DNA of 43,050 bases from NCBI GenBank assembly GCA_003225595.1, contig QIAR01000218.1:1-43050 (forward strand). The letters are read 5' to 3'. This DNA comes from Acidobacteriota bacterium (GTDB lineage: Bacteria; Acidobacteriota; Terriglobia; Terriglobales; Acidobacteriaceae). Each line of letters begins with the position of its first letter. Within the stretch, counting starts at the first letter, position 1. The notes below the pieces were generated by a model. That model was not told where the DNA came from and did no database searches. It saw nothing but the letters and a program-made list of their open reading frames with translations. Of this stretch, positions 22,529-31,252 are shown one piece after another. The translations under genes were made by a program, and so were the position numbers.

Positions 22529-23653
22529 TTATTGCAAGGGCGAGACGCACGTACCTACATCTGCGCGGGCGAGGGTGCCCGCACCGCACGTTCCGAGAAT
22601 TCCCTCGAAGAATTCTTCCACATGCCCAAGAATTTCCCGCTCCGTCTTCGCTTCGTAAATAGCCTTGCGCAGTGCAGCCCCGCCCGGCACTCCGTGTGTG
22701 AACCACGAGGCGAACTGCTTCATCTTGCCTGCCGCTCCGGGCATCTCTTCTTCAATCAGCATCTGGAAATAGGTGCGGATCATTTCGTACCGATCGGCAT
22801 CGGTGGGTTCGCCATAGCCGCCACTCTTCGCATATTGCGCGATCTGGCGGAAGATCCACGGATTCGACGCAGCGGTGCGGCCGATCATCACAGCATCACA
22901 GTCGGTCTGTGTCACCATGGCGCAGGCGTCTTCCGGCATGCGGATGTCGCCATTGCCGATCACCGGAATCTCCACTGCCTGCTTGACCGCGCCAATCCAG
23001 TCCCAGCGCGCCTGACCGCTGTAACCCTGTTCGCGCGTGCGGGCGTGCAGCGCAACCGCGCACAGCCCACAATCCTCCGCCATTTTCGCCAGTTCGACGC
23101 AGATGATTTCCTGTTCATTCCATCCGGCGCGGAATTTGACGGTAAACGGAATCTTCACTGCCGCGCGCACCGCTTCAAAAATTCGCCGGATCCCGGGCAG
23201 GTCGCGCAACAGCCCAGAGCCACCGTTGCACTTGACAACCTTTTTCGCAGGGCAGCCCAAGTTGAGGTCTATGAGATCGAAACCCAGATCCTCGACCATG
23301 CGAGCGGCATCTGCAATCACTGGGGGACTGCTGCCGAAAAGCTGCGCTGAGATGGGATGCTCGTCCTCGTAGAAGTGCAGATAGCGTTGCGCCTTCTTGT
23401 CCTTGGCACGTAGGACACCGTCAGCCGAGGTGAACTCGGTCATGATCAGCCCGCATCCGCCAAGGTTCCGAATGAAGCGACGGAACACTGTGTCGGTCAC
23501 TCCCGCCATGGGGGCAAGGACCGTAGCAGGGGAGAGGGTGACCGAGCCGATTTTGAGTGCGTCGGGAATAGGGACGAGGTCAGCCGCACCACCCTCAGCA
23601 CGGGCGGGGACGCCCGCGCCTACATCGGCCGAATTGTCCCAAAACTTCTGCAC
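22529..23653 (-). CDS. dusB: tRNA-dihydrouridine synthase, DusB-like
   Basis: Dus enzymes reduce uridine to dihydrouridine in tRNA using FMN. The 374-residue protein has the TIM-barrel motifs TVLAPMAGVTDTVFRR, catalytic-cysteine motif DLNLGCPAKKV (C134), HARTREQGYSG and VIGNGDIRMPEDA. It is longer than usual at both ends: the first 25 residues (VGAGVPARAEGG) and the last 15 (CGAGTLARADVG) are encoded by two related GC-rich palindromic repeats. No ATG lies between GTG 23653 and the conserved APMAGVTD, so the GTG is kept. The rpmE terminator is only 24 bases upstream. Confidence 0.92.
   Translation of the reverse strand: MQKFWDNSADVGAGVPARAEGGAADLVPIPDALKIGSVTLSPATVLAPMAGVTDTVFRRFIRNLGGCGLIMTEFTSADGVLRAKDKKAQRYLHFYEDEHPISAQLFGSSPPVIADAARMVEDLGFDLIDLNLGCPAKKVVKCNGGSGLLRDLPGIRRIFEAVRAAVKIPFTVKFRAGWNEQEIICVELAKMAEDCGLCAVALHARTREQGYSGQARWDWIGAVKQAVEIPVIGNGDIRMPEDACAMVTQTDCDAVMIGRTAASNPWIFRQIAQYAKSGGYGEPTDADRYEMIRTYFQMLIEEEMPGAAGKMKQFASWFTHGVPGGAALRKAIYEAKTEREILGHVEEFFEGILGTCGAGTLARADVGTCVSPLQ
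22534..22588. repeat. Palindromic spacer repeat, copy at the 3' end of dusB
   Basis: Two adjacent units, GCAAGGGCGAGACGCACG... (22534-22561, ending CTACATC) and GCGGGCGAGGGTGCCCGC (within 22563-22588), resemble the copy at 23598-23626 and form GGGC/GCCC hairpins. The unit overlaps the last codons of dusB. Confidence 0.5.
23598..23626. repeat. Palindromic spacer repeat, copy at the 5' end of dusB
   Basis: GCA-CGGGCG-GGGA-CGCCCG-CGCCTACATC contains a perfect 6-bp inverted repeat. Most of its positions match the copy at 22534-22561 in the same orientation. It is translated as part of the DusB N-terminus. Confidence 0.55.
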
Positions 23654-23969: not shown

Positions 23970-24211
23970 AAGTCTCCAAATCCCTGCTTGAGTCGTTAGA
24001 TTCTATAGGATTGATTCGGGATTCAGCAACTTGGGGCGGCGGGTGTGCTGCGGTTTGAAATCCATGTACTGTACTAAAATAAGGGCCACAGAATGGTTAT
24101 CAGAGACAACGGCGGCAGCCTGCGGGTAGGTTTTGCGGCGGTTTTCTACAACAGCCGCCCTTTGACCCGGGACCACTCGAGCGCAGGGAGTCATTTGCAG
24201 GAGAGCGCAGG

Positions 24212-24907
24212 ATGAAGACTGTAGGGATGATCGGCGGGATCGGGCCTGAGTCAACGGTTGAGTACTATCGCTCGATTATTGCAACGTATCACGAGCAGAA
24301 ACGGGATGGAAGTTATCCTTCGATCATAATCAATAGTATCGATTTGAAGAAGATGCTGGATTTGATCGAGGCGAATGAATTAGCCAAGCTGACCGAGTAT
24401 CTGGTTGGCGAAGTGCAAAAGCTTGCGAGGGCGGGGGCAGATTGCGGGTTGCTAGCCGCGAATACGCCGCATATTGTTTTTGACGAGATTCGTCGCGGGT
24501 CCCCCCTTCCACTGGTGAGCATTGTCGAAGCAACTTGCCAGGCAGCCAAAGCCCTGGGGTTGAAAAGACTCGGTTTGTTTGGCACACGTTTCACCATGGA
24601 AGGGCGATTCTATCCAGACGTATTCTCTAAGGAAGGGATTACTTTGGCCGTACCCGACGAGGACGAGCAAGCCTACATTCATGACAAGTACATGAGTGAG
24701 TTGGTAAAGGGCATTATTCGGCCTGGAACGCGTGAGCGATTGCTGACGATAGTAGATCGATTGAAAGAGCGGGAGGGTATTCAGGGGTTAATTCTAGGCG
24801 GGACGGAACTGCCCTTAATTTTGCGGGATGTCATGGACCGAGGCATTCCATTTCTAGATACGACTCAGATTCATGTAAAAGGTGTTGTCGCACAATTATT
24901 GTCGTAG
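24212..24907 (+). CDS. Asp/Glu racemase-family protein lacking both catalytic cysteines
   Basis: The 231-residue protein aligns along its length with YgeA-type amino-acid racemases (MKTVGMIGGIGPESTVEYYR, GLFGTRFTMEGRFYPDVF, FLDTTQIHVKGVVAQLLS). PLP-independent racemases of this family use two cysteines as acid and base. Here the first site reads LLAANTPH (A82) and the second ILGGTELPL (G197), so both are replaced. C78 is close to, but not at, the first site. The fold is clear, but racemase activity is doubtful. From memory, AANTPH/GGTELPL sequences form a recurring subfamily, so the change is probably not a sequence error. Confidence 0.85.
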   Translation: MKTVGMIGGIGPESTVEYYRSIIATYHEQKRDGSYPSIIINSIDLKKMLDLIEANELAKLTEYLVGEVQKLARAGADCGLLAANTPHIVFDEIRRGSPLPLVSIVEATCQAAKALGLKRLGLFGTRFTMEGRFYPDVFSKEGITLAVPDEDEQAYIHDKYMSELVKGIIRPGTRERLLTIVDRLKEREGIQGLILGGTELPLILRDVMDRGIPFLDTTQIHVKGVVAQLLS

Positions 24908-24953
24908 ATGGCCGCCCAACCGCGCCCGCCATCTAAATACACATAATCCAAAT

Positions 24954-24982
24954 AAAAAACGGCAGGGCCGACCCCCTGCCGT
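24954..24982 (-). terminator. Rho-independent terminator of the HU gene
   Basis: ACGGCAGGG (24959-24967) and CCCTGCCGT (24974-24982) form a perfect 9-bp stem with a 6-base loop. On the minus strand a T-run follows. Confidence 0.85.
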
Positions 24983-25000: not shown

Positions 25001-25282
25001 TTACTTGCTACGGTTGACTGCTTTCTTGAGTTCGGCTCCAGGTGTGAACTTTGCGACTTTGCGGGCAGCGATCTTGATCGTGGCACCGGTTTGCGGGTTG
25101 CGCCCGTTCCGGGCCCTTCTCTGTGAAACCGAGAAAGTGCCAAAACCAATCAGAGCCACCCGATCTCCCTTCTTCAGAGCAGTGGTAATGCTGTCCACCG
25201 CAGTATCGATCGCAGTGGTTGCTTGTGTTTTGCTTATATCGCAACCGTCTGCGATTTTGTTTACGAGATCGGCTTTGTTCAT
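25001..25282 (-). CDS. HU-family DNA-binding protein
   Basis: This 93-residue histone-like protein begins MNKADLVNKIADGCDISKTQ and contains GFGTFSVSQRRARNGRNPQT and IKIAARKVAKFTPGAELK, the HU/IHF core including the DNA-bending proline arm. It compacts and bends DNA. The ATG at 25282 is preceded by CAGGAGAGAAG. A TTGACA hexamer about 120 bases upstream (minus strand, 25406-25401) may be its -35 element, but the -10 is weak. A strong terminator follows. A second, divergent HU/IHF protein is encoded at 36010-36279. Confidence 0.95.
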   Translation of the reverse strand: MNKADLVNKIADGCDISKTQATTAIDTAVDSITTALKKGDRVALIGFGTFSVSQRRARNGRNPQTGATIKIAARKVAKFTPGAELKKAVNRSK

Positions 25283-29476: not shown

Positions 29477-31252
29477 GTGCTGACCCACCGGCTCGAGTTC
29501 GTTCCCGAACGTGACGCTGAAATCTTCGCTGCCATTCCTTCCGCGACCGCGGTCTTTCTGCTGCGCGGCAATGATCCGCAAGCCGAGCCTTATGTTACGA
29601 AGAGTGCACACCTGCGCCGCCGCCTCATCCGCCTGTTGGGCTCTCCGGAGGAACGCACGAAGCGATTGAACCTGCGCGATCGGATTCGCTGGATCGAGTA
29701 CTCGCTCGCCGGGTCCCATTTTGAATCCGGCTTCCTGCTCTACAAAGTGCTACGCGCGACTTTCCCCAATACGTATTCAAAGCGTCTGCGACTGCGCTTG
29801 GCACCCATGATTAAGCTGCACATGGAAAACGAATTCCCGCGAGCTTCGGTCACAACGCGTCTGGGGCGGCTTAACGGCCCAGCGCTTTATTACGGACCAT
29901 TTCCTTCGCGCACAGTGGCGGAAAAATTCGCCAACGACTCACTCGACTTCTTCAAAATGCGCCGTTGCGTCGAGAATCTCCATCCCGATCCGAAGTTTCC
30001 CGGCTGCATCTATTCGGAAATGAAAATGTGTCTGGCGCCCTGCTTCAAGGGTTGTACCGACGAGGAATACCGAAACGAAGTCGCACGTGTGCAGGCCTAT
30101 TTGGATTCTAGTGGCGACTCGCTGGTGCGCGAAATCTCCATGCTGCGTGATGAGGCGTCGAACCATTTGGATTTCGAGAGTGCTGCGGCTACCCATGCGC
30201 GCCTGGAAAAACTCTCGCCGTTGCTAGGCCAACTGCCGGAAATCGTACGCCGCATTGATCGACTCGCAGCAGTCATGTTGCAGCCTTCATCTGTACCCGA
30301 ATGTGTCGCCCTGTTCCGCATCGATTGCGGGCACATTTCCGGACCGCTGAATTTTCCGATCCAATCTACTGAGTATGCGAAGTCGCAATCGATGGAGTCC
30401 CGGCTCCAGGAGGCGCTCACGACAATCACACCCGCTGTGTGCAAAACTGCGCTTGAACTGATGGAGCACCTGGCCATCCTGAAGCGCTGGTATTACCGCA
30501 GCCACCGGATCGGAGAAATCTTTCTCGCAGATGAGAAAGGCGGGCTGCCGATGCGTCGCATCGTGCGGGGCATATCACGCGTCTATAAAGGCGAAAAACC
30601 GGAGACCGATCTTGCAGCCACGATGATCACCCCACCGAATCTCTTGTACGGGCGGCATCCTGCCTGCTGTCTCGGAGGGCATCTTGTCTTCCTAGGAGCG
30701 GCCAACGGGTTAGCTCGACAGACCGAGGACGGCGGCTCTACCAATTCCCCTGCGATTGAGGGCATGATGAAACACCAAAACGACAAATCTCTTCGAGAAC
30801 ACCTGCTCTCCCTCCTCAAAGGCGGCGGAGCGCACGCCAAGTTTGACGATGTGGTTGCTGATTTCCGAGCGGATTTGCGTGGCAAGAAAATGGAGGGCCT
30901 GCCCTACACGCCATGGATGCTGCTCGAGCATATGCGTATCGCGCAGTGGGACATTTTGGAGTTCAGCCGCAATCCCAAGCACATTTCCCCAGAATGGCCC
31001 GACGGTTATTGGCCAAAGACGGAATCGCCACCAAGTGCGGCGGCTTGGAACAACAGTATCAAGTCATTCCGAAAAGACCTCAAGTCGATACAGGATCTGG
31101 TTAGCGAACCCAAGGCCGACCTCGATGCACCCATCCCCTGGGGTGACGGCCAGACAATCCTGCGAGAAGCACTGCTGGTTGCCGATCACAACGCGTATCA
31201 TTTGGGACAGATAGTCGTGTTGCGAAGGCTTCTTAGTGCGTGGAAGGAATGA
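29477..31252 (+). CDS. UvrC-like protein fused in frame to a DinB-superfamily protein
   Basis: Residues 1 to about 390 resemble the N-terminal half of UvrC: a degenerate GIY-YIG domain (AVFLLRG and [17 protein letters not shown], with the GIY and YIG residues altered), [15 protein letters not shown], a four-cysteine cluster ([24 protein letters not shown]) and a UVR motif ([16 protein letters not shown]). Residues about 395-429 look like translated spacer. Residues 430-591 are a DinB/YfiT-type four-helix protein with metal-ligand histidines ([11 protein letters not shown] and DHNAYHLGQ). ATG 30764 is preceded by GAGGGC, so the DinB part may be translated separately. The start is GTG 29477. 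Confidence 0.75.

Follow-up and report, generated by a model that had tools for sequence, protein, structure and literature searches.

A cysteine-free subfamily of Asp/Glu-racemase-fold proteins with glycine in place of the second catalytic cysteine, represented in an Acidobacteriota genome

The racemase-fold proteins EcL-DER (YgeA; PDB 5hqt, 5ell, 5elm and 5hra) and PH1733 of Pyrococcus horikoshii (2zsk) are the closest described relatives of the protein considered here. Neither is a two-cysteine enzyme, YgeA having Thr83 and Cys197 and PH1733 having Ala and Cys at the catalytic positions. Racemase activity is absent from the C197S mutant of EcL-DER, as reported in PMC12838360, where PH1733 is also given as inactive on Asp and Glu. 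RacX of Halocola, whose first position is Ala79, works in both directions, and activity is markedly reduced in its C193S mutant (PMC12838360). The arylmalonate decarboxylases, which belong to the same superfamily, carry a glycine (G74) for one of the racemase cysteines, keep Cys188 as proton donor and catalyse a one-sided decarboxylation-protonation (PMC4996985). No papers on family members devoid of both cysteines were found among open-licence papers, which is weak evidence of novelty.

In the current analysis an Asp/Glu-racemase-fold protein of 231 residues, referred to as P0001, has been identified at positions 24212 to 24907 (forward strand) of the window, the whole stretch of 43,050 nucleotides that was analysed. 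The frame is open and full-length, with an ATG start and a TAG stop, and its translation scores 152.7 bits against PF01177 (curated cut-off 31), which assigns it to the Asp/Glu/hydantoin racemase superfamily, and 174.7 bits against the amino acid racemase family TIGR00035 (curated cut-off 93.1). The scores lie below the equivalog cut-offs of PRK10200 (YgeA; 127.7 vs 417), the cysteate racemase CuyB (105.1 vs 190) and the glutamate racemase MurI (TIGR00067; 22.9 vs 146.65). The AlphaFold2 prediction, for which 29 proteins of the window and the loci served as input alignment, has a pLDDT of 94.1 and a pTM of 0.90. The model has the two-domain pseudosymmetric racemase fold, and its top PDB matches are EcL-DER 5hra (TM 0.93), the Yersinia homologue 3ojc and PH1733 2zsk, the TM scores to the three ranging from 0.87 to 0.93.

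P0001 resembles EcL-DER in fold (TM up to 0.93, with 33% identity in the structural alignment) and in the anchoring motifs NT-H, TE, GT-T-M and H221, but EcL-DER has Thr83, Cys197 and Ile160 where P0001 has Ala83, Gly197 and Tyr160. PH1733, the top PDB sequence match (E-value 1.4e-38), shares the AANTPH and TELPL motifs and likewise has no first cysteine, but it retains the second (GCTELPL) and has Ile at 160. A single-cysteine sister group with Ser or Ala at 83 and Cys197, found in Geobacter, Desulfobacterales, SM23_31 and Flammeovirgaceae, is 46–53% identical to P0001 and has near-identical NTPHIVFDE and TELPLIL motifs; it differs in Cys197, in Leu or Ile at 160, in Tyr41, which most of its proteins have, and in LNTT where the subfamily of P0001 has LDTT. 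The arylmalonate decarboxylases are similar in that a Gly replaces a racemase cysteine. The analogy is incomplete, since they keep Cys188 whereas P0001 has no cysteine at the second-cysteine position. The fold match to P0001 is weak (TM about 0.54) and the profile alignment is not significant (hhalign probability 15.5), so that mapping Tyr160 onto the decarboxylase pocket residues by this alignment was rejected.

Codon 83 (GCG, Ala; 24458 to 24460, forward strand) aligns with Cys82 of PhAspR and Thr83 of EcL-DER, and codon 197 (GGG, Gly; 24800 to 24802, forward strand) with Cys194 of PhAspR and the catalytic Cys197 of EcL-DER. P0001 therefore has neither the PhAspR-type pair of cysteines nor the Cys197 equivalent of EcL-DER. 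The original prediction that both catalytic cysteines are replaced is thus right as to their absence, while the first position is to be numbered A83 and not A82; its remark that the flanking motifs are well kept is borne out. YgeA, with Thr83 and Cys197, could not serve as the two-cysteine reference it was taken for, and the premise that cofactor-independent racemases need both cysteines does not hold, as EcL-DER/YgeA works with Thr/Cys and RacX of Halocola with Ala/Cys (PMC12838360). Since most relatives, YgeA included, already are without the first cysteine, the noteworthy change is that of Cys197 to Gly, and because the Thr/Cys and Ala/Cys enzymes are active, only the loss of the second cysteine makes a strong argument.

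To place this change, 88 proteins, 3 of them reference enzymes, drawn from genome contigs and about 1,400 whole genomes were aligned. The combinations at 83 and 197 are A/G (28), S/G (18), S/C (15), A/C (12), T/C (8), C/C (3), G/C (2) and D/C (2). Ala (28) or Ser (18) at 83 together with Gly197 is hence common to 46 of the 88 relatives, and the remaining 42 all keep Cys197. The first cysteine is missing also from 39 of these 42 rows, in which Thr, Ser, Ala or Asp can take its place. As the thiol is absent at both positions, the G197 subfamily cannot racemise by the canonical mechanism with either two thiols or one.

In a tree built without columns 83 and 197 the 46 proteins with Gly197 still cluster on one side of a branch (SH-aLRT 88). 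On this tree the G197 state needs 1 change, compared with a mean of 29.6 after shuffling. For a more careful tree the set was thinned to 68 rows and column 160 was left out as well. This tree needs 2 changes, a single one sufficing in only 12% of its bootstrap trees, so that G197 may have arisen once, which is not proven.

The subfamily spans Acidobacteriota, Chloroflexota, Bacteroidota, Ignavibacteriota and others. Carriers by record label include Acidobacteriota, Chloroflexota, Ignavibacteria, KSB1, Gemmatimonadales, Rhodanobacter and Roseivirga, some of these records being metagenome bins that may be mixed, and the phylum sample taken around a genome of Geobacteraceae contains one further carrier. 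The closest relative, L005 (JAKEEU010000388.1, 80% identity), was found in a KSB1-labelled bin whose size, about 10.3 Mb, is unusually large; this bin is perhaps mixed. Of the 399 genomes examined for the class, 15 have the gene, and a plasmid search returned zero places with at least 60% identity. Among viral relatives Cys197 is kept in every one whose match spans the site. Large viral contigs (L147–L165, up to about 350 kb) encode two-cysteine Asp/Glu racemase homologues with CNTAH or CNSAH and CTELPL or CTEIPL motifs.

Gly197 is invariant in 46 of 46 members over a subtree length of 22.8 changes per column, with zero changes seen at this position; a released site would be expected to drift among small residues, unlike this constant Gly. 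The dN/dS of P0001 against L005–L010 is about 0.06–0.10 where dS could be estimated, values that are approximate because synonymous sites are near saturation. Selection on the cysteine-less state, as originally proposed, is supported by both observations. P0001 belongs to a distinct cysteine-free subfamily under selection, and is neither an isolated oddity nor a gene in decay. Since a whole bacterial subfamily retains this absence of both cysteines, a role other than standard racemisation is probable for the protein.

The reading that P0001 is a decaying or mis-assembled gene without function could draw on its patchy presence (absent from a genus-mate and from most genomes of the class), but with a full-length frame, a low dN/dS where estimable, 46 relatives sharing the substitution and a pLDDT of 94 it is extremely improbable.

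A substitute cysteine has also been considered. Cys78 (TGC; 24443 to 24445, forward strand), which had been put forward as able to rescue racemisation, occurs in P0001 only among the 46 members, the usual residue being Phe, and it is rejected as a replacement catalyst. Elsewhere in the protein, Cys109 is present in only 27 of 46 members, and 10 of the 46, including L005, have no cysteine in the whole protein. A hidden substitute cysteine is for these reasons excluded as the mechanism of the family, and rescue by Cys78 is unlikely.

The 46 members agree fully in 21 columns, among them S42, H87, S103, T128, M129, H157, Y160, G197, T198 and H221. A hallmark of the subfamily is Tyr160 (TAC; 24689 to 24691, forward strand), a candidate acid/base or pocket residue that lies in a predicted helix (150–162) and is found in 46 of 46 members, where the 42 others have Ile (25) or Leu (17). 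His157 (CAT; 24680 to 24682, forward strand) is equally invariant in the subfamily and occurs in 23 of 42 proteins elsewhere. Asn41 (AAT; 24332 to 24334, forward strand) is present in 41 of 46 members and most relatives have Tyr; it is not strictly tied to G197, because a viral single-cysteine relative also has Asn41.

The gene forms, with about 180 bp upstream, a segment (24034 to 24949) that by DNA match is absent from the genus-mate G001, the one other genome of the genus compared. Homology to G001 stops after 24033 and is found again from 24950 onwards; the two matching parts lie 28 bp apart in G001, where the region between the L31 and HU genes is continuous. Either one lineage acquired this single-gene segment of about 0.9 kb or the other lost it. 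Its left flank is the ribosomal protein L31 gene (23751 to 23969, reverse strand; PF01197) and its right flank the convergent gene of an HU-type DNA-binding protein (25001 to 25282, reverse strand; PF00216), whose terminator-like hairpin (24959 to 24982, reverse strand) is kept in G001. The genes flanking the segment in the window, which also encode a dihydrouridine synthase and an isocitrate lyase, are functionally unrelated to it. A sequence of about 30 bp at the start of the dihydrouridine synthase ORF (about 23597 to 23627) recurs in at least 11 other places in G001 with 90–100% identity, as a dispersed short repeat. Elsewhere in the window, an ORF of 591 residues (29477 to 31252) matches DinB_2 in its C-terminal part and has, by eye, a UvrC/GIY-YIG-like N-terminal part, and is a possible fusion of the two.

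When the genes around about 60 loci were clustered, no conserved partner gene emerged, since no cluster occurs at more than 8 of them and the top one consists of generic MacB/FtsX permeases. As neighbours are not conserved, no pathway follows from gene context, and assignment to an operon or pathway was rejected. A PLP-dependent decarboxylase is encoded nearby at only four loci (L005, L088, L092 and, as a cut copy, L014), and a MocR-type regulator, named partly by eye, at L088 and L092. A minority of members also lie near genes for RidA and, named by eye, EamA-like exporters and a PhzF-like isomerase; at L005 there is an island of amino-acid-related genes, which includes EamA-like exporters, a PLP decarboxylase, PALP and PhzF-like genes. 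These neighbours give a weak hint of an amino-acid-like ligand.

The host genome also carries a paralogue with D83 and C197. It is present in both members of the genus (L002, 1477 to 2289, and L004) with PDNTIH and GCTEIPL motifs, that is with Asp at the first cysteine and Cys197 kept, and at L002 it adjoins an ORF that by eye is adenosine deaminase-like. The only good MurI match of the host is in two adjacent pieces in different frames at a contig end (G000:C560:8056-8645; L100, L101), with none above the cut-off; a frameshift or an assembly error is the likely cause.

An altered, one-sided chemistry in a re-tooled pocket of a horizontally spread cysteine-free subfamily is the reading we favour over a pure binding role and over thiol-free racemisation, with a probability of roughly 0.45. 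The ancestor would already have been without the first thiol when the remaining catalytic Cys197 was changed to Gly. The carboxylate and amino anchors are kept on two sides (S42, N84-T85, H87, T125/T128, T198-E199 and H221), so that the protein probably still binds a small amino or carboxylic acid. Gly197 leaves room that, with Tyr160 and the invariant His157, would make up a re-tooled pocket. A one-sided proton transfer or a lyase- or decarboxylase-like step may take place there, on a substrate that is larger or of a different kind.

This reading is based on the contrast of Gly197 with Cys in 42 of 42 others and of Tyr160 with Ile or Leu in the same 42, on the inactivity of EcL-DER C197S, the reduced activity of RacX C193S and the inactivity of PH1733 on Asp and Glu, as reported in PMC12838360, and on the glycine for one cysteine that marks arylmalonate decarboxylases (PMC4996985). 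It also draws on the few members near amino-acid-related genes, the clustering with the cysteine columns removed, the low dN/dS, the ten cysteine-free members and the confident EcL-DER-like fold. The changes at 160 and 197 fall together on one or two branches and are not independent evidence of function. That the cysteine-free branch carries out a thiol-independent, Tyr160/His157-assisted chemistry on an amino or carboxylic acid, of a kind not yet described for this fold, is put forward tentatively, as a somewhat less probable proposal.

The nearest rival is a non-catalytic pseudoenzyme serving in binding, sensing or scaffolding, with fold and ligand anchors kept and catalysis lost. Replacement of the essential thiol by a residue with no side chain, neighbourhoods without conserved enzyme partners and the reported lack of activity on Asp and Glu in the related one-cysteine PH1733 (PMC12838360) are in line with such a role. 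The catalysis-flanking T198, E199, N84 and H87 are, however, nearly or fully invariant, the newly fixed Tyr160 suggests a re-used site, and the gene moves alone with no partner to regulate; we consider this role rather unlikely.

It is more doubtful still that the protein remains a racemase or epimerase in which Tyr160, His157, water or the substrate stands in for the thiols. The entire substrate-anchoring frame of EcL-DER is present, the first position can be Thr, Ser, Ala or Asp in relatives and the Ala79-bearing RacX works in both directions (PMC12838360), but the second cysteine, needed in both EcL-DER and RacX (PMC12838360), is found in 42 of 42 other relatives and in every viral relative matched across the site, and Cys78 can be ruled out as a route shared by the family.

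Racemase calls made by TIGR00035 on members of this subfamily are well above cut-off and yet likely wrong in function, because the residue on which catalysis depends is missing from the whole subfamily. A conserved cysteine-free form of a thiol-based fold would show re-use of the scaffold, for which the single-cysteine sister group and the cysteine-free group provide a clean comparison set.
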